Positions 30,691 to 41,989 of a DNA stretch of 64,000 nt are shown piece by piece. The position numbers and the translations under genes were made by a program. Numbering within the stretch: the stretch's first letter is position 1; the number at the start of each line of letters is the position of its first letter. The stretch spans positions 1-64,000 of the forward strand of contig NZ_JACOFN010000005.1 in assembly GCF_028764065.1 (NCBI RefSeq). Direction: 5' to 3'. This stretch comes from Fructobacillus sp. CRL 2054 (GTDB lineage: Bacteria; Bacillota; Bacilli; Lactobacillales; Lactobacillaceae). A model generated the notes under the pieces. That model saw only the letters and a list, made by a program, of their open reading frames with translations, did no database searches and was not told the origin of the DNA.

Positions 30691-30714
30691 ATTAAGGATA
30701 AGGTGGAAAATTTC

Positions 30715-31947
30715 ATGGCAAAGATTATGGCCGTTAACGCTGGATCATCTTCATTAAAGTTCCAATTGTTGGAGATGCCGGCTGAAGAAGTAATTGCCCA
30801 AGGATTGGTTGAACGAATTGGGATGGAAGATGCCATCTTTACAATTAAGTTTGCTGCCAATGCAAAGGCAGAAGCGAATGACCAAGTAGAAGTAAAGGGT
30901 CAAAAGGCCAAGTTTAAGACAGTAACTCCTATTAAGGACCACTCTGTTGCCATCAACATGATGCTGGAAGAATTGTCAAACTTGGATATTATCTCAGACT
31001 TCAACGAAATCGTTGGTGTTGGACACCGTGTTGTTGCCGGTGGGGAATACTTCGACAAGTCCGTTTTGATTAACGATGATGTTTTGGCAAAGATCGATGA
31101 ACTGGCTGATTACGCACCATTGCACAACCCAGCCAATGCCATGGGAATCCGCGTATTCCAAAAGCTTTTGCCAGAAGCAACGGAAGTGGCAGTTTTTGAT
31201 ACTTCCTTCCACCAAACAATGCCTAAGGTAAACTATCTCTACTCACTACCATACAAGTACTATGAAAAGTACGGTGCACGTAAGTATGGTGCCCACGGAA
31301 CTTCACACCGTTACGTTGCGTCAAAGGCTGCTGAACTTTTGGGTAAGCCACTTGAAGAATTGAAGTTGATTACTCTTCATTTGGGTGCTGGTGCTTCAAT
31401 TACCGCCGTTAAGAATGGTAAGTCCTTTGATACATCAATGGGATTCACTCCATTGGCTGGTGTAACGATGGCTACTCGTTCTGGGGATGTTGATGCTTCA
31501 TTAGTTTCCTTTATCCAAGGTAAGGAAAACTTGTCAAATGATGAAATGTTGACAGTTTTGAATAAGCAATCTGGTTTGCAAGGAATTTCAGAATTGTCAT
31601 CTGACATGCGTGATCTCCGTGCTGCTCGTAAGGATAATGAAAAGGCTGAATTGGCCATCAACATCTTCGTTGACCGTGTTGTTTCTTACATTGGACAATA
31701 TGTTGCCAAGATGGATGGTGCTGACGCCATTGTCTTCACTGCTGGAATTGGTGAAAATGCTGATTGGGTACGTGAAGAAGTTGTGGAACGCCTCGGTTAC
31801 TTTGGCATTAAGATTGATGCTAAGAAGAACGAAGGCTGCACTGATGAAGCTGATATTTCAGCTGCAGATGCTAAGATTAAGACCTTGGTTATCCCAACTG
31901 ATGAAGAATTGATGATTGCTCGTGACGTTCAGTCATTGATGAAGTAA
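30715..31947 (+). CDS. ackA: acetate kinase
   Basis: Converts acetyl phosphate and ADP to acetate and ATP, 410 aa. The N-terminal signature VNAGSSSLKFQ and the second signature HGTSHRYV near residue 200 are clear, along with the later GVGHRVVAGG motif. Start ATG 30715 has AAGGTGG a few bases upstream. In heterofermenters it gains ATP from the phosphoketolase product when an electron acceptor such as NADH oxidase is available. Confidence 0.97.
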   Translation: MAKIMAVNAGSSSLKFQLLEMPAEEVIAQGLVERIGMEDAIFTIKFAANAKAEANDQVEVKGQKAKFKTVTPIKDHSVAINMMLEELSNLDIISDFNEIVGVGHRVVAGGEYFDKSVLINDDVLAKIDELADYAPLHNPANAMGIRVFQKLLPEATEVAVFDTSFHQTMPKVNYLYSLPYKYYEKYGARKYGAHGTSHRYVASKAAELLGKPLEELKLITLHLGAGASITAVKNGKSFDTSMGFTPLAGVTMATRSGDVDASLVSFIQGKENLSNDEMLTVLNKQSGLQGISELSSDMRDLRAARKDNEKAELAINIFVDRVVSYIGQYVAKMDGADAIVFTAGIGENADWVREEVVERLGYFGIKIDAKKNEGCTDEADISAADAKIKTLVIPTDEELMIARDVQSLMK

Positions 31948-32012: not shown

Positions 32013-32040
32013 CATGATTATAGATAGAAAGCAATCCGAT

Positions 32041-33255
32041 ATGGAACTTGAATTTAAGAAACGTCTCAAAAAAAATAAGAAGAAGCATCCCGTCCGCAAT
32101 CTTATTCTAATTATTTTAGCTTTGTTAATTGTGGGAGGGGCCTCCGCCCTTTATATTAACCATCGTGGATATTCTGCCAAAAACCCTAATGACATGTCTT
32201 TGACAGAAGTTAAGGTTTCTTCATCAGATTCAATCTCACAGGTTGGTAAGAAACTGCAGAAAAAGGGCTTGATTCGTAATGAACGCTATTTAACTCGTTA
32301 TGCAAAGCGTTACGGTGCTAAGTCAATTAAATCTGGTACTTATCTCTTTTCTCCAGTTCAAAGCATTGACAATGTTTATGAAGAATTAGCTCAAGGGCCT
32401 GCGGAAACGCCGGTCTTAGATTCTGGCTACACTTACATTGATGGGAACAAAACCGCGGCACAGACAGCTGGTACGATGGCTGATGCTGCGAATGTTTCGA
32501 AGACGGATCTGTTAAAGGCTTACTCTGACAAAGACCTCATCAAAGAGATGAAAGAAAAGTATCCAAAGCTCTTCTTAAATGCTAAGTCTGATTTGACTTT
32601 GTATGACCTGGTTATGCCTGGTATTTATAAGTTAAAGGATGAAAAGTCCGCTGATGCTCTTGTTCGTGATTTGATTAAGCGGACTGATAAGGAAATGAAG
32701 GCTTACTATCCAGAATTAAAGAGTAACGGTATTCCTGTTTCAACTGCTGTACTTTTGGCCGAAAATGGGGGTAAGACGGAGTTCGACCGTCGCTTAGCCT
32801 TTATTAAGAAGATTGCTTCTTATGCTCAACAATTGAAGAAAGACTACGGTATTCTTCCTTCCATCTCGATTGCGCAAGCTATCCATGAGTCGAACTGGGA
32901 TGATTCCGACCTTTCTTCTAAGTACAATAATTTCTATGGTGTTAAAACTGACGACACGACCTCTGGTAAGTCCGTTGTTTTGGAGACACAGGAAGTTGAG
33001 AACGGCGTCACTGTGACGAAGAAAGCACGCTTTGCGGTTTATGCTTCATATAAGGATTCCATGAAGGCCCATGCTAAGACTTTGGTCAACGGTAATACTT
33101 GGAATGCCAACCAGTTTAAGGATGTCATTGCAGCAACGAATTATAAGGATGCTGCTCAGGCCTTGTATGATGATTCTTATGCGACGGATCCAAATTATCC
33201 GGCAGCCATTATTCGAATTATTCAAAATTGGAATTTAGCTCAATATGATAAGTAA
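32041..33255 (+). CDS. MltG-like N-terminal region fused to a GH73 glucosaminidase
   Basis: A 404-aa membrane-anchored cell-wall protein. After a basic cytoplasmic start and one membrane helix (about 23-42) comes a YceG/MltG LysM-like module (DSISQVGKKLQKKGLIRN and SGTYLFSP), then an MltG-like region with MPGIYKL. The C-terminal half is a glucosaminidase (GH73) domain with the catalytic Glu in AQAIHESNW and NNFYGVK. I chose ATG 32041 because ATG 32014 lies within the ackA terminator and lacks a ribosome binding site. It likely cleaves glycan strands. The fusion order is unusual. Confidence 0.8.
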   Translation: MELEFKKRLKKNKKKHPVRNLILIILALLIVGGASALYINHRGYSAKNPNDMSLTEVKVSSSDSISQVGKKLQKKGLIRNERYLTRYAKRYGAKSIKSGTYLFSPVQSIDNVYEELAQGPAETPVLDSGYTYIDGNKTAAQTAGTMADAANVSKTDLLKAYSDKDLIKEMKEKYPKLFLNAKSDLTLYDLVMPGIYKLKDEKSADALVRDLIKRTDKEMKAYYPELKSNGIPVSTAVLLAENGGKTEFDRRLAFIKKIASYAQQLKKDYGILPSISIAQAIHESNWDDSDLSSKYNNFYGVKTDDTTSGKSVVLETQEVENGVTVTKKARFAVYASYKDSMKAHAKTLVNGNTWNANQFKDVIAATNYKDAAQALYDDSYATDPNYPAAIIRIIQNWNLAQYDK

Positions 33256-33399: not shown

Positions 33400-34344
33400 A
33401 TGGATTTTGCAATTATTATGGCCTTGCTCCCTGCCTTGTTCTGGGGGTCTGTTGGTATCGTTACCACAAAGATGGGTGGTACCGCCGCTCAACAAACAAT
33501 GGGAATTTCATTTGGAAGTTTGATCTTCGGATTACTTCTGATGTTCGCCTACGTTATTCCAAATGGTTTCTACTTGGGACCTGAAATCTGGGTGACTGGA
33601 TTACTTTCAGGGTTGGTTTGGGCGATGGGGATCGCTTTCCAATTCATGTTGTTCAAGCAGATGGGGGTTTCACTTGGTGTGCCACTTTCAACTGCTGGTC
33701 AAATCATCATGAACGCCTTGCTTGCCGCTACAATCTTGGGTGAGTGGACAACGGTTGCCATGTGGGTTGTTGGTATTATTTCAATTGCGCTAGTTGTAAC
33801 TGGTGCGGTCTTTATTTCAAAGCCTGATAAGAAGGCGGCTGTTACATCAAAGATTGATTCTAAATCAATTTTGTACCTTATCTTGTCAACTGCTGGCTTC
33901 ATGATGTACTTTGTTTTGCCTAACTTCTTGGCAAAAATTGGTTATGTTTCCGAAGAAGTACGTTCAGCTGGAAATGGTTTGCAGTACATGACTGCCATCA
34001 TCGGCCCACAGTCAGTTGGTCAAGCTTTGGGTGCTGTCTTGATTGTTATCTTTATTTTCCACGAACAAAAGCAAATGTTTGCTAAGCCATCATGGAAGAA
34101 CCTCTTGACTGGACTTGTTCAGGCCTTGGGTAACTTGTTCATGTTCTTGGCTGCCGCAAACCCACACGTTGGTCAGACAATTGCTACGACTTTGTCACAG
34201 TTGAACATCGTTGTTGGAACGTTTGGTGGTATTTACATTTTGCACGAAAAGAAGACGCCAACCCAAATGAAGACGATTATCATTGGAACTGTCCTGGTTT
34301 TGATTGGTGCAATGATTATCGGAAATATTCACTCATTTAGCTAA
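33400..34344 (+). CDS. GRP-family sugar transporter, copy 1
   Basis: A 314-aa protein with about ten hydrophobic helices, a member of the glucose/ribose transporter family (GlcU/RbsU). It takes up hexose or pentose by proton symport. The motif ALLPALFWGSVGIV at the N-terminus and AQQTMGISFGSL are typical. AAAGGAG precedes the ATG. First of three tandem copies. Non-PTS glucose uptake by GRP proteins is common in bacteria lacking glucose PTS. Confidence 0.88.
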   Translation: MDFAIIMALLPALFWGSVGIVTTKMGGTAAQQTMGISFGSLIFGLLLMFAYVIPNGFYLGPEIWVTGLLSGLVWAMGIAFQFMLFKQMGVSLGVPLSTAGQIIMNALLAATILGEWTTVAMWVVGIISIALVVTGAVFISKPDKKAAVTSKIDSKSILYLILSTAGFMMYFVLPNFLAKIGYVSEEVRSAGNGLQYMTAIIGPQSVGQALGAVLIVIFIFHEQKQMFAKPSWKNLLTGLVQALGNLFMFLAAANPHVGQTIATTLSQLNIVVGTFGGIYILHEKKTPTQMKTIIIGTVLVLIGAMIIGNIHSFS

Positions 34345-34373
34345 AATTTAAAATAAATTCTAAATAAAGTATT

Positions 34374-34401
34374 AAGAAAGTGCTCGTCACTTTCTTTTTT
34401 T
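34374..34401 (+). terminator. terminator between transporter copies 1 and 2
   Basis: AAGAAAGTG / CACTTTCTT stem with loop CTCGT and T6. Confidence 0.8.
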
Positions 34402-34411
34402 ATAAAAAAAC

Positions 34412-34440
34412 TTGTGTAAGCGTTTACATTGAGTTACAAT
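34412..34440 (+). promoter_or_regulatory. promoter of GRP sugar transporter 2
   Basis: TTGTGT (34412-34417), 17-base spacer, TACAAT (34435-34440). Same arrangement as copy 1. Confidence 0.75.
34415..34428 (+). promoter_or_regulatory. cre site (CcpA) in promoter 2
   Basis: TGTAAGCGTTTACA, a full match to the cre consensus, located between the -35 and -10 boxes as in copy 1. Confidence 0.8.
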
Positions 34441-34474
34441 AATATATGTAATCAAGTGAAAGGAGTCCACTAAG

Positions 34475-35419
34475 ATGGATTTTGCAATTATTATGGCTTT
34501 GCTCCCTGCCTTGTTCTGGGGGTCAGTTGGTCTTGTATCAACTAAGATGGGCGGTTCAGCCGCTCAACAAACACTAGGTATGTCATCAGGTGCTTTGATC
34601 TTTGGATTGATCACAATGTTTGGCTACGTTATTCCAAATGGTTTCTACATGGGAACTGAAGTTTGGGTAGTTGGTCTTTTGTCTGGTTTGGTTTGGGCAA
34701 TGGGAATGGCCTTCCAGTTCTTGCTCTTCAAGCAAATGGGTGTCTCACTTGGTGTGCCACTTTCAACTGCTGGTCAGATTATTATGAACGCCTTGTTGGC
34801 TGCTACATTGCTTGGTGAATGGACTTCAGTGGCAATGTGGGTAGTTGGTATCATCTCAATCGGATTGGTTGTAACGGGTGCTATCTTCATTTCAAAGCCT
34901 GACAAGTCTGCAGCAGAACCATCAAAGATTGATTCTAAGTCAATCTTCTACTTGATCATGTCAACTGTTGGTTTCATGTTGTACTTCGTCTTCCCTAACT
35001 TCTTGGCTAAGGTAGGATACGTATCAGAAGAAGTACGCTCAGCTGGAAACGGTTTGAACTACATGACTGCCATCGTTGGGCCACAGGCTATCGGTCAGGT
35101 TATCGGTGCTTTGATCATCGCCGTCTTCGTTCTTGGAGAGGGTAAGACAATGTTTGCAAAGCCAACTGCAAAGAACTTGGTAACTGGTTTGGTTTGGGCT
35201 TTGGGTAACATTTTCATGTTTGCCTCAGCTGCTAACCCACATGTTGGTCAGACAATTGCCACGACGCTTTCACAATTGTGTATCGTTGTCGGAACGTTCG
35301 GTGGAATTTACATCTTGGGTGAGAAGAAGTCTTCTACTCAGATGAAGGCCATTATCCTTGGTACGATTCTTGTTGTAGTTGGTGCCATGATTATTGGTAA
35401 CATTCACTCATTCGCTTGA
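34475..35419 (+). CDS. GRP-family sugar transporter, copy 2
   Basis: A 314-aa paralogue of copy 1, collinear throughout. The block around the start is identical from GTAATCAAG (33373 and 34448) through the first codons, which indicates recent duplication. Differences cluster in the membrane helices near the middle (SIFYLIMSTVGFML against SILYLILSTAGFMM). Function as copy 1; different sugar preference or expression is possible. It has its own promoter, cre and terminator. Confidence 0.88.
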   Translation: MDFAIIMALLPALFWGSVGLVSTKMGGSAAQQTLGMSSGALIFGLITMFGYVIPNGFYMGTEVWVVGLLSGLVWAMGMAFQFLLFKQMGVSLGVPLSTAGQIIMNALLAATLLGEWTSVAMWVVGIISIGLVVTGAIFISKPDKSAAEPSKIDSKSIFYLIMSTVGFMLYFVFPNFLAKVGYVSEEVRSAGNGLNYMTAIVGPQAIGQVIGALIIAVFVLGEGKTMFAKPTAKNLVTGLVWALGNIFMFASAANPHVGQTIATTLSQLCIVVGTFGGIYILGEKKSSTQMKAIILGTILVVVGAMIIGNIHSFA

Positions 35420-35450
35420 TATTGATAATTTGTTAACAATATAAATAAAC

Positions 35451-35481
35451 AAAAAGGAAGTGCTTAGCACTTCCTTTTTTT
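35451..35481 (+). terminator. terminator after transporter copy 2
   Basis: AAGGAAGTGCT / AGCACTTCCTT near-perfect palindrome with A5 and T7 flanks. Confidence 0.88.
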
Positions 35482-35576
35482 ATCTGGATTCGATTCTAAA
35501 AGCACTGATTTTAAGGCGCTTATAGCTGATTCATTTATTTCTCTTATGCTGTTTGTGAATATTTAACAAATAAAAC

Positions 35577-35604
35577 TTGTGTATTATTTCACAGTATGTA
35601 TAAT
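35577..35604 (+). promoter_or_regulatory. promoter of GRP copy 3, without a cre core
   Basis: TTGTGT (35577-35582), 16-base spacer, TATAAT (35599-35604). The bases that align with cre in copies 1 and 2 read TGTATTATTTCACA (35580-35593): the ends match but the central AGCG is replaced, so CcpA control was probably lost. Confidence 0.6.
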
Positions 35605-35636
35605 TGGTCTTGTACGAAAGTAAAAGGGGAAAGAAA

Positions 35637-36567
35637 ATGGACATTGCCATTGTACTTGCTTTACTGCCAGCCTTATTTTGGGGTTCGGTAGGAATCGTCG
35701 CCACTAAGATTGGTGGATCTGCTTCGCAACAAACTTTAGGTATCTCAGCAGGGGCTCTTTTGTTTGGCCTTGTTGTTATGTTCGGTTATGTTATTCCGAA
35801 TGGCTTTTATTTAGGGGCGGAAGTTTGGGTTGTTGGAATTTTATCTGGTCTTGTTTGGGCCGTCGGGACAGCCTACCAGTTGTTAACTTATAAGCGCCTG
35901 GGCGTCGCTTTAGGGCTCGCACTTTCGACTGCTGGTCAAATCATCATGAATGCCTTATTAGCCGCTACAATCCTTGGAGAATGGTCGTCATTAGCAATGT
36001 GGGCTGTTGGGATTATTTCGATTGCCCTCGTCGTTACTGGAGCATTCTTCATTTCAACGCCAGATAAGTCTGATGCTAGCAAACCAAAGGTTGATTTTAA
36101 GTCAATGCTTTATTTGACCATTTCAACGGCCGGCTTCATGATTTACTTTGTTCTACCTAACTTCTTAGCCAAAGTCGGTTACATCTCATCATCAGTTCGA
36201 ACGGCTGGAAACGGCTTGAACTACATGACCGCCTTACTTGGGCTAGGTAGTTGGAGCGATTTCAATTGTTATCTTTGTTTTCCATGAAAAGGATTCCATG
36301 TTGAAAGCACCCTCCTGGAAGAACATGTTGACGGGGGTTGTTTGGGCTTAGGGTAACATCTTCATGTTTATCTCCGCTGCTAACCCAGCAGTTGGGCAAA
36401 CGATTGCAACAACACTTTCTCAGTTGAACTTAGTTGTAGGAACTTTCTCTGGAATTTATATTCTTCATGAGAAGAAATCGTCACATCAAATGAAGGCGAT
36501 TATTCTTGGTACCATTCTAATTGTTGTCGGTGCGATGATTATTGGTAATATTCATTCTTTCGCATAA
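35637..36567 (+). pseudogene. GRP-family sugar transporter, copy 3 (broken)
   Basis: Collinear with copies 1 and 2 but disrupted twice. Near 36240-36265 about 14 bases are missing relative to copy 1, so the frame shifts and stops at 36287 after GLGSWSDFNCYLCFP. In the restored frame, the Leu codon TTG that follows TGGGCT in copy 2 is TAG at 36349-36351. The tail from about 36364 is intact (VGQTIATTLSQLNLVVGTFS). The protein would lose about the last third and is presumably non-functional. It has its own promoter. Confidence 0.9.
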
Positions 36568-36651: not shown

Positions 36652-37140
36652 TTACTTAGCACTTTCAACTTTAAGAATCTTAACTTCAATCATTACATCG
36701 TTTGGAAGTGGCACACGTACTGTGTCGCCTTGGTGCTTTTCAAGCAAGGCGGCAGCCATTGGTGATTCGTTTGAAATCTTACCAGCCAATGGATCAGCTT
36801 CAACGGAACCAACGATTGTGTATGTTTCAGGTTCTTCGTCAGGTAATTCTTGGAAGGTAACCGTCTTACCCATTGCTACTTGGTCAGCATCTGAATCGTC
36901 AGCTGAAATGATTTCAGCGTTTTCAATCATCTTACGAAGAGTAACGATACGTCCTTCGACGAAGGCTTGTTCATCCTTGGCTGATTGGTATTCAGAGTTT
37001 TCTGAAAGGTCACCATATGAACGAGCGATTTGGATTCGCTTCGTAATTTCTGGACGCTGACGTGTAATTAAGTCCTCCACCTCAGCTTGTAATTTATCGC
37101 GGCCTTCGGCCGTCATTGGAAATGTTTTTTCTTCCGCCAT
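36652..37140 (-). CDS. greA: transcription elongation factor GreA
   Basis: A 162-aa factor that inserts a coiled coil into the polymerase channel to trigger cleavage of backtracked RNA. The N-terminal coiled coil (residues 10-75) has the acidic tip in [11 protein letters not shown], and the C-terminal FKBP-like domain ends in ILKVESAK. Length matches the family (about 158). AAAGGATG lies before the ATG. It is a single gene with its own terminator. Confidence 0.97.
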
Positions 37141-37194
37141 GGAACTTCATCCTTTCAATGCTTTAGGCATAAAAAATACAGCAAACTGACTATA

Positions 37195-39825
37195 TCACGG
37201 GCGCCTGCTCCGTGCAAGTGAGAAGAAACGTTTGTATCCGTAAATTAATAGAACTAGGAAAGCAAAGGTGGAGCTAATTGCGATACCCGCTAATAAATAA
37301 GGTGGTGTATATGTGAGAATGACATGGTGCTTACCAGGTGTGGTTGGTACTGCTAAAAGTCCACCTGCAACGGTTTTAGTTGCAACGGATTTACCATCGA
37401 CTTTTGCCGACCAGCCAGGTGCTGATAGGGTAGAAGTCATAATCAGTGGTTGTTCCTTCGTTGTCGAGATGCTTCCTTCAATTGTTCTTGAATTTGATTT
37501 CGTAATTTTTAATGGGTGAGTGCGCAATTTTGCTAAGTCGCTCTGAACCTTTTTCTTATCGAAGGCATAAAGAGCAAAATCGTCGAGGTAGCGCTGGCTC
37601 GTGCCCTTTTGAAGAACGATGGCTAGGGTCTGTTCTTTGCCCTTGGCATCGTTTGCTAAGTTTAATGCGACGGTATGGTTATAGCCACTTTCTTGCTTAA
37701 TCTGGTGGCCGTTCAAGGTCAAGATAACCCCTGACAGATCGAATGCACCGCCTAGGTTTAAGTAGTAGGCGCCATCGGTCGTTGGCGTAAAGGTTAAGAG
37801 TAGGCTAGCGGGTTCGCGCTTATTGACTGCTTGAATAACCCCGCCGGTAATGTTTTGAGACTTAGCCAGGTTGTAAGAACCTGAAATAGTTAGTGGTTGT
37901 TGTGTAAGAAGAATTTCATCTTTTTTACCCGCTAGGTAAGTGAGCAAGCGTTCCTGGTTGGCTAGAGGATAGCGAATGTTAATTGGTGTGTTCAACGCTT
38001 GATTGGAGGCAGCATAGGCGACTGGAAGGACGGTTTGATTTTCCTTCAGTGCCCAGCCGTTACCGGAGGCGACAACCGGTGCCTTTTGATAATCCGGCCG
38101 GTTGGATTTTCTTAGAGCCGTTGTACTTTTAGCTGAGCTATCGTTGCTTTGGTCCAGGTAGTATTTGAAAGACAGCAGCGAATCTAAAACGGTTGTACCG
38201 TTATTATAAGAAACCTTTGAATCACCTGAAATTTGTCCCATATTGCGATAAAAAGTGGCTGAATTAGCAGGCAATAGGGATGAAAAGTGTGATCCTGCTT
38301 TGAAATTACCTAAAAAGCCATCATTATAGGTCCGACCCAGTCCTTCAGCCACACGATACCAGGAGTGGTCCTGCTTTAATGATTGATCCACCAGGCTGAC
38401 TTGCTTAGCTCCTGACTGGTATTCTTTGTTTGTTAGGTAGGAGATATGGTTCAGGGTCATGGCCAAGTTGGCAATCAAGAAGAAAGAGGTCAAAATGCCA
38501 AGCGCCCAAAGGCGTGGAAGGTGCTGGTTTAAGAAAAGAAGGGTCAGAATGGTTAATAGGTAAACAAAAAGAAAAGCAAGTAACTCTGGTTTATCAAGAT
38601 AGGAGAGCTTATTTAGCTGTAGAGAACCAAAAATCGTGACGGCTAGGGTACCAGTTAGGAAGAAGATACGGGCGGGGATGCTGGGTAGCCAGCCGGTTTT
38701 GTAGCCACGTGCTGCTAAGATGATAATTAATAGGGAAATGAAGAATGAAAAACGGGCTGGATACCAGACAGGGTACTGACCACCGTGGAAGAGCAAAATA
38801 AGGGGTGTCCAACAGGTTGCCAGAATGAGGATTGATAATGCTAGAAGTGAGAAGAGTTTTTCAAGCCAACTAATCGACTTTTTAGAAAAGAAGGGCCAAA
38901 TGAAAAATAAGATGATTGGTGCAACTAAGAAATTGGCCTGTCCACTTTGCATTTGGTTGAAATCAAAGGAACCAGGAATTAATTTAAAGAAGAGGAAGGC
39001 TGGGTTATTTTCGAAGCCGAGTGTCCATTTTGCTGAATGGGTGGTTTTTCCTAATCGAAGCTGTGCCAGCGTTGGTAACCAAAGCCAAGCGGTTACTAGG
39101 ACGGCTGACAGGCTAGCAAGGGTTGTCTTGAACAGAAGAATTAAGGAATGTTTGGGCTGTTCGTTGGCCCAGGCAATTGGAAGATACAGCACTAAGAAAA
39201 GGGCTAACATCCAGGCCATGTAGTAGTTGGATAGGATGGCGAGAGCCAGTGAAAGTGTGAAGGGCCAAACTTTTCCATTGCGGAGGGCTTTGTGTAAGGT
39301 GAGAAGGACGATTGGCACAAGAATTGCCGTATCAAGCCAGAGTAAGTTTAAGTCATTGGCGATAAACCAGGCGGATAAGGGGTAATTGATGGCAAAAATC
39401 GTAATGATGTAGCCCTTTAAGTGCATGGCCTTGTTTAAGAAAAGCGCCATGGTTAATCCAGCAAAGGCGACTTTTAAGAGTGTAACCAGTAAAATCCAGT
39501 CAGGTAAAGTTGTGGGATTAGCCAGTAAAAAAATAAAATTGAAGGGGGACATCAAATAGTAAGACCATTCAGCCACCATGTCGCCGCCTAGACCGGATGA
39601 AAAAGAATAGAAAAAGGCGGATGGGTCATGGAGAACTGTATGCTTGAACTGGGCAAAGTAGTCCAGGTATTGTTGTCCTAAATCGACAGTCAGAATGGTT
39701 GATGAGCCGAAGGGGGCCATGTGTCGATAAATAAAATAAATTAATAGGAAAAAGAATGGCAACCAAAAGGAGAGTGCCACTGGACTATAAATTGAATTTG
39801 GTATTATTTTTTTCATTCTTGCCAT
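37195..39825 (-). CDS. YfhO-family membrane glycosyltransferase-like protein
   Basis: An 876-aa protein: about 12-13 membrane helices in the first 500 residues, an extracellular domain of about 330 residues, then a final helix and a basic tail (YKRFFSLARSRRP). The N-terminal LTVDLGQQYLDYFAQF loop with acidic residues and SSGLGGDM are the YfhO/GT-C signature. YfhO proteins glycosylate teichoic acids in Gram-positives. Substrate here is unknown. It diverges from the class B PBP gene, both cell-envelope functions. An inner Met at 39816 is an alternative start. Confidence 0.88.
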   Translation of the reverse strand: MARMKKIIPNSIYSPVALSFWLPFFFLLIYFIYRHMAPFGSSTILTVDLGQQYLDYFAQFKHTVLHDPSAFFYSFSSGLGGDMVAEWSYYLMSPFNFIFLLANPTTLPDWILLVTLLKVAFAGLTMALFLNKAMHLKGYIITIFAINYPLSAWFIANDLNLLWLDTAILVPIVLLTLHKALRNGKVWPFTLSLALAILSNYYMAWMLALFLVLYLPIAWANEQPKHSLILLFKTTLASLSAVLVTAWLWLPTLAQLRLGKTTHSAKWTLGFENNPAFLFFKLIPGSFDFNQMQSGQANFLVAPIILFFIWPFFSKKSISWLEKLFSLLALSILILATCWTPLILLFHGGQYPVWYPARFSFFISLLIIILAARGYKTGWLPSIPARIFFLTGTLAVTIFGSLQLNKLSYLDKPELLAFLFVYLLTILTLLFLNQHLPRLWALGILTSFFLIANLAMTLNHISYLTNKEYQSGAKQVSLVDQSLKQDHSWYRVAEGLGRTYNDGFLGNFKAGSHFSSLLPANSATFYRNMGQISGDSKVSYNNGTTVLDSLLSFKYYLDQSNDSSAKSTTALRKSNRPDYQKAPVVASGNGWALKENQTVLPVAYAASNQALNTPINIRYPLANQERLLTYLAGKKDEILLTQQPLTISGSYNLAKSQNITGGVIQAVNKREPASLLLTFTPTTDGAYYLNLGGAFDLSGVILTLNGHQIKQESGYNHTVALNLANDAKGKEQTLAIVLQKGTSQRYLDDFALYAFDKKKVQSDLAKLRTHPLKITKSNSRTIEGSISTTKEQPLIMTSTLSAPGWSAKVDGKSVATKTVAGGLLAVPTTPGKHHVILTYTPPYLLAGIAISSTFAFLVLLIYGYKRFFSLARSRRP

Positions 39826-39946: not shown

Positions 39947-41989
39947 ATGAATCGTAATCGTTACTTAGAAGATGGTAATAAAAACGACGCTCAGGCAAAT
40001 TTGCCGGGGCGCCTAAAGTTGTTATTGGGCCTTGTTGTGGCTTTAATTGCGGCTCTATTAATTCAACTAGCCTTTCTAACCCTAAAACAGGGTACGGGCT
40101 ATTTGGCGGAAGTGAATAAGTCCGATCAGACAATTGAAAAGGGAAACGCTCCCCGTGGTTTAATCTATGATTCTACCGGTAAAGTGATTACGGGAAATCA
40201 GTCTTCACTGGCTATTACTTATACCCGTGGTTCGACAACAACGACCAACCAAATCGCAGCGGTTGCAAAGAAGTTGTCCAAGTACATTACCATTGATTCA
40301 TCTCGACTAACGCCACGTTCAACGGCCGATTATTACTTGGTGACGGATTCAAAAGCTGCAACCAAGGTTCAGGCAGCTGTGAAAAAGGAAAATCCAAAGA
40401 CGGCTTCTTCCTGGTCAACAACCCAGTTGAACACTGCAATGGCGAACTACGTGATGAATCATAATTTGGATAAGAACGTCGATAAGAACGTGGCCATGAT
40501 TTTCCAAAAGATGTCTGGTGCTTCTGCTTTATCAACTACCTATATTAAGGAAAGTGATATTTCAGATGATGCACAGGCTAAGATTGCGGAACGTTTGTCT
40601 GAGATGCCTGGTGTCAAAATTGGTGAGGCTTGGTCACGTAACTATCCAGAAGGAACGGACTTTCAATCATTGACAGGAACGGTTAGTGATGAATCGGCTG
40701 GATTACCCGCTGATCGTCTGCACCGCTTGTTGGCACAGGGATATTCACAAAACGAACCCGTTGGAACTTCGGCTTTGGAAAAGCAGTATGAATCACTGTT
40801 AAAGGGTTCACCATCGCAAACCTTAGTTTCAACGTTGGGCAATTTGAAGACTTCTTCGATTAAGTATGAAGGTCAATCTGGGGATTCACTAAAGTTGACG
40901 ATTAACGCTGAGTACCAGAAGAAGGTTCAGAAAATTTTGGAAGATAACATTCCTGGTGGAAATGTTCAGGGTGCCTATTCAACAGTCATTAATCCATACA
41001 CTGGTGGTATTTATGCCATGGCTGGGGTTAGCCGTGATTCTTCAACTGGGAAGAAGACAGCCAACCAGCTAGGTAATATTAACCAGGCCATTGTCATGGG
41101 GTCTGTTGTTAAGCCAGCAATTCTGGCCACAGGCTTCCAAAAGGGTGTTGTGACAGCTTCATCAAACACGATGAACGATCAGGCGATTAAGATTGCGGGA
41201 ACGCCAGAAATCACCTCTTACTGGAATAAGACGGGAACGCCAACGCCAATTGATGCCCGAACGGCCTTGGAAACTTCTTCTAACACTTACTTTGTTCAGT
41301 TGGGAATGAAGATTGGTGGACAAACTTATTCATCTGGTTCTTCACTTCACTTGAATTCTAACGCCTTCCAGACGCTTCGGAATGGTTTGGCACAGTTTGG
41401 ACTGGGAACGAAGACTGGAATTGATGTGGAAGGTGAGACAGCCGGATACAAGGGACTGACAACAGGGGCTAACCTTGGTAAGTACTTGTACGAGTCCTTT
41501 GGCCAGTATGATTCATACACAACAATACAGTTGGCGCGCTATGTTTCAGCTATTGCTAACGGTGGCTATCTGGTTCAACCACACTTGGTTGGATCTGTTC
41601 TTCAAACTGACAAGGATGCCAAGTATCAGAAAACTGTCTGGACATCCGAGCCAACGCTTCAATCTCAGGTTTCTTTGAAGGACGACGAATGGAAAGTCAT
41701 AAAGGACGGTATGTACCAAGTTGCCAACGGATCATCATCCCATAACACGGGTACAGCTCTGCACAACATGAATCCAAAGGTCTATGCTAAGACTGGTACT
41801 GCGGAAACGACAACGAATGGTCATACAACCTTTACGGAATCAATGGTTGTCTACGTTCCAGGTACTCCATTTGCCATGTCACTGGCTATTCCAGGAATGG
41901 ATTCTTACTTGGATGGAACGAACGGTCGTATTGCTAAGCAGATTATCCAGGCCTTCTGGGAAACTGTTGTTGCTAATACAAATAAATAA
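39947..41989 (+). CDS. class B penicillin-binding protein (PBP2B-like transpeptidase)
   Basis: A 680-aa peptidoglycan transpeptidase with one N-terminal membrane helix (about 24-47), a dimerisation/pedestal domain (about 60-290) beginning with the APRGLIYD motif, and the transpeptidase domain (about 320-675). Active-site motifs are SVVK (in MGSVVKPAI), SSN (in ETSSNTYF) and KTG (in YAKTGTAE). It crosslinks peptidoglycan in elongation or division. PBP2B is the closest functional label; the exact subtype is uncertain. A terminator follows. Confidence 0.92.
   Translation: MNRNRYLEDGNKNDAQANLPGRLKLLLGLVVALIAALLIQLAFLTLKQGTGYLAEVNKSDQTIEKGNAPRGLIYDSTGKVITGNQSSLAITYTRGSTTTTNQIAAVAKKLSKYITIDSSRLTPRSTADYYLVTDSKAATKVQAAVKKENPKTASSWSTTQLNTAMANYVMNHNLDKNVDKNVAMIFQKMSGASALSTTYIKESDISDDAQAKIAERLSEMPGVKIGEAWSRNYPEGTDFQSLTGTVSDESAGLPADRLHRLLAQGYSQNEPVGTSALEKQYESLLKGSPSQTLVSTLGNLKTSSIKYEGQSGDSLKLTINAEYQKKVQKILEDNIPGGNVQGAYSTVINPYTGGIYAMAGVSRDSSTGKKTANQLGNINQAIVMGSVVKPAILATGFQKGVVTASSNTMNDQAIKIAGTPEITSYWNKTGTPTPIDARTALETSSNTYFVQLGMKIGGQTYSSGSSLHLNSNAFQTLRNGLAQFGLGTKTGIDVEGETAGYKGLTTGANLGKYLYESFGQYDSYTTIQLARYVSAIANGGYLVQPHLVGSVLQTDKDAKYQKTVWTSEPTLQSQVSLKDDEWKVIKDGMYQVANGSSSHNTGTALHNMNPKVYAKTGTAETTTNGHTTFTESMVVYVPGTPFAMSLAIPGMDSYLDGTNGRIAKQIIQAFWETVVANTNK

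Follow-up and report, generated by a model that had tools for sequence, protein, structure and literature searches.

An MltG-like membrane stem joined to a GH73 glucosaminidase domain in Fructobacillus and related genera

The window, a 64,000-nucleotide stretch of Fructobacillus sp. CRL 2054 (contig NZ_JACOFN010000005.1, positions 1 to 64,000), encodes a 404-residue protein in which the N-terminal half of MltG is fused to a GH73 domain (32041..33255, plus strand, stop codon included). The reading we favor, at a probability of roughly 0.6, is that the gene is an mltG ortholog with GH73 in place of the catalytic half, whose stem positions the glucosaminidase on nascent glycan and leaves GlcNAc reducing ends. 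The novelty is a new combination of known domains, found lineage-wide at an otherwise conserved locus. No description of an MltG–GH73 fusion was found in the literature on MltG/YceG, glucosaminidases, or Leuconostoc, Fructobacillus and Lactobacillus hydrolases, as judged by titles and abstract openings, and public domain databases may already display the architecture.

Domain architecture and active sites

The open reading frame offers two candidate starts, an ATG at 32014 (413 residues) and one at 32041 (404 residues). Because a 97%-identical congener (L035) carries an in-frame TAG between the equivalent positions, 32041 is taken as correct, upholding the start originally read; it also shows the M-E-[L/F] beginning common to relatives with an aligned N terminus (4 of 10 rows, the window's included). 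From there a Lys-rich start, predicted to be cytoplasmic, precedes a predicted transmembrane helix (residues 18–43, 32092..32169, from model secondary structure and sequence). The LysM-like module of MltG follows (residues ∼50–125, 32188..32415), its approximate boundaries drawn from the start of the YceG profile match and the alignment to 4iiw. A middle MltG-derived segment (residues ∼126–240, 32416..32760) stops where the MltG catalytic helix begins, as placed by the profile match up to position 156 and the same structural alignment, and the GH73 domain occupies residues 246–404 (32776..33252, from Pfam and the 3fi7 alignment), all on the plus strand.

In Pfam, YceG (PF02618) matched residues 57–237 (E 1.3e-14; 54.8 bits against a cut-off of 32.4) over profile positions 1–156 of 275, and GH73 (PF01832) matched residues 260–399 (E 6.4e-32; 111.3 bits against a cut-off of 30.2) over positions 2–123 of 123. 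Positions 157–275 of the YceG profile, its C-terminal, catalytic part, were unmatched in the window protein and also absent from the other fusion proteins aligned; the NCBI model for endolytic transglycosylase MltG (TIGR00247) scored 47.4 bits, below its cut-off of 103.4. No LysM model was found in the window protein among Pfam matches up to E 10, and the label “LysM-like” is used because of homology to MltG rather than a LysM profile match. The original prediction had described an MltG-like N-terminal half with a membrane helix and LysM-like module and a complete C-terminal GH73 domain, with a YceG fold to be expected within residues 60–260, and each of these agrees with the matches obtained.

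A PDB profile search with a query built from ten fusion proteins divided the protein in the same way: Listeria MltG (Lmo1499, 4iiw) matched profile positions 32–245 (E 4e-25), and the GH73 domain of Auto (3fi7) matched positions 246–397 (E 6e-30), so that the two alignments place the junction of the halves at the point where the MltG catalytic part begins. The predicted structure had a mean pLDDT of 82.2 and a pTM of 0.71, with weak regions at residues 1–15 and 285–300, the latter a low-confidence lobe of the predicted GH73 active site. It superposed on 3fi7 with Z 18.0 (152 residues, rmsd 3.1) and on 4iiw_B with Z 11.4 (178 residues, rmsd 10.7); given the latter rmsd, the MltG part is not superposable as a single rigid body. 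Structure prediction, proposed originally as a check, thus matches each half to a structure of its expected family.

The catalytic glutamate of MltG is reported to be E218 for the E. coli enzyme and E242 for that of B. subtilis (PMC8135044). The apparent remnant of this region in the window protein is LLAEN, containing E241 (32752..32766, plus strand, from alignments); an HMM alignment places “LAE” in the catalytic register, and a MAFFT alignment displaces it. Residue conservation was scored over 75 loci, several of which can come from one genome; merging identical sequences left 37 distinct fusion proteins. Position 241 is E in 13 proteins (all Fructobacillus, g1), A in 20 (Leuconostoc) and S in 4 (Convivina and g39). 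E283, E318, Y380, D383 and N296 are invariant in 37/37; from the alignment to Auto, in which the corresponding glutamates are catalytic, E283 and E318 are presumably the catalytic pair. Because position 241 varies and these five residues do not, the YceG active site is, on alignment evidence, gone, and the GH73 active-site signature is kept across the fusion proteins. The degenerate MltG glutamate originally suspected in LLAENGGKTEF stands as a lost active site with E, A or S at the position, but the glutamate itself is still there in g1.

Locus, distribution and origin

In mltG loci of relatives (L072, L073), the gene order is pheT-mltG-udk-greA-yfhO-pbp, and in a genus with full-length MltG (g18, L194) it is pheT-mltG-yfhO-greA-pbp. 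Six fusion loci from four genera (L064–L068, L076) read ackA-fusion-sugar transporter-greA-yfhO-pbp, in which greA and yfhO run antiparallel to the fusion; pbp was not found within L067. The corresponding window genes are ackA (acetate kinase, 30703..31947, plus strand, from locus reading), greA, the usual downstream neighbor of mltG (36652..37140, minus strand, from locus comparison), a yfhO-like membrane protein gene (PF09586; 37195..39825, minus strand) and a class B penicillin-binding protein gene with PBP dimer and transpeptidase domains (39947..41989, plus strand), the last two identified by Pfam and locus comparison and lying near mltG in relatives too. The greA-yfhO-pbp block is common to the fusion loci and to L072, L073 and L194, with greA flipped relative to L072 and L073. 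This shared downstream block, together with the YceG match, makes the fusion a likely mltG ortholog, judged from sequence and gene order, with its catalytic half replaced. Neither pheT nor udk stood beside the fusion in the loci read, pheT being sited elsewhere; since ackA takes the place of pheT and udk is missing, the upstream side has been rearranged rather than simply edited in place.

Between the fusion loci and g18, where MltG is full length, the greA-yfhO pair has opposite orientation (window 36652–39825; L194; L069), as if by one inversion. Between the fusion and greA, the window holds three tandem sugar-transporter genes (33400–36567), the first matching PF06800 and the other two assigned on sequence similarity. 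The third is split into two ORFs (35604–36287 and 36364–36567) and so appears to be broken here. A promoter scan gave 4 matches against 4.1 expected, no excess over chance.

A YceG match was present in 364 of 397 sampled family genomes. The window's own genome, close to F. durionis (98%, L085), is 1.33 Mb and 91.8% complete; its single YceG match is the fusion, and one further GH73 lies separately in a 252-residue frame. The lineage was covered by 37 genomes: 13 Fructobacillus (g1, including Leuconostocaceae bacterium ESL0958), 2 Convivina (g6), 1 L. fallax (g7), 19 Leuconostoc (g16) and 2 of g39 (Lactobacillaceae bacterium L1_55_11 and kin). Direct search detected the fusion in all 37 (22/22 and 15/15); that of G347, an assembly of ∼890 contigs, is a fragment covering residues 69–404 with one stop. 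Among the 37 distinct fusion proteins there is one with an internal stop (L102, identical to L139). The fusion was also read in 28 named loci, a set that overlaps the 37 genomes and in which many records are identical. YceG E-values in the 37 lineage genomes run from 1e-11 to 1e-19, compared with ∼1e-45 to 1e-85 where a genus has the full MltG, and are likewise weak in g5, g29 and g34.

The searches turned up no second YceG match, either in the window's genome (∼92% complete) or in the 36 further lineage genomes listed; 13 genomes lacking a match stand outside this listing. On this ground a hidden second MltG was rejected for these genomes, and the GH73 domain is read as a replacement of the MltG catalytic half and not an addition. 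The original prediction had allowed for a glucosaminidase either replacing or added to MltG, and had raised the possibility of a separate, active mltG elsewhere; the search decides for replacement and rules against such a gene in this genome at that completeness. MreC was found in 15/15 genomes tested, and at least that part of the elongation machinery therefore exists.

Outside the lineage, one genome from each of 31 strong-YceG genera gave no fusion-like match across both halves; in 20 of these genera the MltG match (E limit 1e-15) was sited apart from the GH73 matches, and the remaining 11 had an MltG gene that missed that limit with the fusion query. Among the matches listed for 295 genomes from the order (up to six candidates scored per genome), only G000, G016 and G054, each a lineage member, matched over the whole profile; among those for 398 genomes from the phylum (up to four candidates scored), only G000 did (E 1e-58). 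Hence, in these control genera and among the matches listed for both samples, no further full-length fusion was found beyond the lineage.

Neighboring genera show related forms. A short fusion of ∼290 residues in g29 consists of the helix, the LysM-like module (YceG positions 1–68 of 275) and GH73, without the middle segment; five frames read (G029, G065, G095, G121 and G145; 290–293 residues) all have this make-up. Of the other two g29 genomes, both <70% complete, G168 has its GH73 match in a 329-residue frame, and for G189 the sole match lies in a frame of 210 residues. Short-fusion loci are L056/L069, L057/L070, L146, L153 and L154; L069 reads ackA-adhE-like-short fusion-one gene-greA-yfhO-pbp, and L070 has the same known genes. 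A stub of helix and LysM-like module with no catalytic domain occurs in 13 of 19 g5 genomes searched, in open frames of 118–145 residues, and in the sole g34 genome searched (stub loci of both, L209–L222). In three loci read it sits between pheT and udk-greA (L071:8121-8534, L074:6494-6895 and L075:6724-7101). Stub dN/dS was 0.055–0.146 in four pairs, three of them sharing rows, with two pairs saturated and one identical. No YceG match stands beside pheT in L165, L167 (g26), L173 (g5), L179 and L184 (g37), and three of these loci (L165, L167 and L173) have udk no more than ∼150 bases after pheT, as though mltG were wholly deleted.

Selection was estimated by comparing seven congeners with the window for each of three parts of the protein, 21 comparisons in all. 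In the MltG-derived parts, dS was computable in 6/14 comparisons, with dN/dS of 0.005–0.10 in five and 0.275 in one (the LysM part of L041) and five of the six dS values >1; for the GH73 part it was computable in 6/7, with dN/dS of 0.013–0.069. Since dS is close to 1 or higher in nearly every case, these ratios are rough. The GH73 part had the lowest dN in 6/7 congeners, and in the seventh, L035, all three parts were at ∼0.01. Low dN/dS in both halves implies that both appear to be maintained, GH73 evolving slowest, and the estimates, rough as they are, point to purifying selection in each.

A tree of 62 GH73 domains groups the 19 from fusions in a single clade (100/100) among the family's solo GH73 enzymes and the five from short fusions in a separate clade (100/100), the bootstrap being unsettled at a correlation of 0.983. 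A sister relationship of long and short fusions was unrejected (AU p 0.279) and appeared in 333 of 1000 bootstrap trees. In a PheT tree, g18, represented by one row, falls between the long- and short-fusion groups (93/93, not starred), a placement that would favor two origins; the ackA side shared by long- and short-fusion loci favors one. The short version of g29 is possibly trimmed or independently captured, and we lean toward GH73 having been captured once, with the middle segment lost afterwards in that genus.

Proposed function and competing explanations

MltG is described as cutting nascent strands near the membrane to ∼7 disaccharides, for a purpose presented as unsettled among strand termination, freeing from the membrane and the making of short strands (PMC8135044). 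In pneumococcal MpgA, the cut at the seventh unit is reported to be set by the LysM domain (PMC8563077), and in Streptococcus suis truncation or mutation of the MltG catalytic domain is reported to give rounded cells (PMC10269899). By analogy with MltG and MpgA, the membrane helix and LysM-like module of the fusion would still hold and measure nascent glycan near the membrane, where the GH73 head would cut it, putatively between GlcNAc and MurNAc. Released strands would then carry GlcNAc reducing ends, as opposed to the 1,6-anhydroMurNAc ends left by MltG or the MurNAc ends left by pneumococcal MpgA. The fusion may in this way do the strand-release job of Staphylococcus aureus SagB, a membrane-bound glucosaminidase reported to free nascent glycan strands with SpdC (PMC12272431). 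A seven-unit ruler need not carry over, since the swapped catalytic domain may change the distance from LysM to active site, and the g29 short fusion without its middle segment and the bladeless stubs argue against a strictly preserved one. Conservation of stubs without a catalytic domain in g5 suggests that the N-terminal part may also have a non-cutting role.

It is unlikely, though worth serious weighing, that the protein is instead a membrane-tethered general autolysin, in which the MltG part is only anchor and spacer and GH73 acts on mature wall, as in cell separation, and plays no part in processing nascent strands. In its favor, dN is higher in the N-terminal half than in the GH73 domain, and GH73 is a domain type of ordinary autolysins, with a separate GH73 protein in the window's genome (the 252-residue frame) and solo forms of ∼210–250 residues commonly in relatives. 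However, the LysM and middle parts look constrained, the mltG neighbors adjoin and no other YceG match remains; moreover, an argument made for B. subtilis MltG is that a membrane-held domain reaches only the membrane-proximal wall (PMC10653849).

Quite improbable is a main function of the MltG half as a protein-protein scaffold, by PBP recruitment or in a SweC-like non-catalytic role, with GH73 activity secondary. The conserved stubs, found in 13/19 g5 genomes and one of g34 and with low dN/dS in the four pairs above, are reminiscent of such a role, as are the report that inactive MltG still reduced PBP transpeptidation (PMC8135044) and the tabulation of SweC as a B. subtilis YceG protein with activity not determined (PMC10653849). 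Against it, the GH73 catalytic residues are unchanged in 37/37 proteins and GH73 has the lowest dN in nearly all congeners. An artefact of assembly or annotation, whether a chimeric contig or a frameshift merging two genes, was rejected as next to impossible, the same fusion recurring across the overlapping sets of 28 named loci and 37 genomes with no sign of such an error in this one.

Beyond the favored reading of a stem-positioned glucosaminidase, we consider it possible, if tentative, that the protein exemplifies a modular strand-measuring machine, whose MltG anchor and ruler are kept and whose cutter was exchanged for a glucosaminidase, possibly twice if the g29 short version is counted. 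Were this true, what the cell selects would be position on the nascent strand and not lytic-transglycosylase chemistry, and the bladeless stubs would show that anchor and LysM module function by themselves. The whole lineage, Leuconostoc included, appears to keep the MltG stem and to have lost the enzyme in favor of a different bond specificity. Such a swap would separate position from chemistry, predict a distinct strand-end signature and offer a natural test of the parts of MltG. For genomes of this lineage, “endolytic transglycosylase MltG” would be an erroneous annotation, and some relatives have catalytically empty MltG stubs.

Comparison with known systems

The GH73 domains of the Auto/AtlA/FlgJ type (3fi7, 7qfu, 3vwo) share the domain fold and catalytic glutamates of the fusion; they occur in secreted or flagellar proteins and are not known to sit on an MltG stem. 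B. subtilis SweC, likened here by description rather than sequence, is YceG-related and membrane bound as the fusion is predicted to be, and is possibly like the stubs of g5 and g34. It is a CwlO cofactor and, to our knowledge, has no GH73 domain. SagB is a membrane-held glucosaminidase, as the fusion appears to be with its predicted helix (residues 18–43) and GH73 domain, and nascent-strand release is proposed for the fusion as well. SagB works with SpdC, a partner of the CAAX-protease family that sets product length, and we know of no MltG-derived part in it. MltG/YceG itself (PF02618; E. coli MltG, B. subtilis YrrL, Listeria Lmo1499, 4IIW) has the same helix, LysM-like module, middle segment and downstream neighbors; the fusion differs in having GH73 in place of the catalytic part (profile positions 157–275) and a catalytic glutamate that is not conserved across the lineage. 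Pneumococcal MpgA, a muramidase with a LysM ruler, is likewise an MltG scaffold with changed chemistry; it retains the YceG catalytic fold, whereas in the fusion the fold itself has been exchanged.
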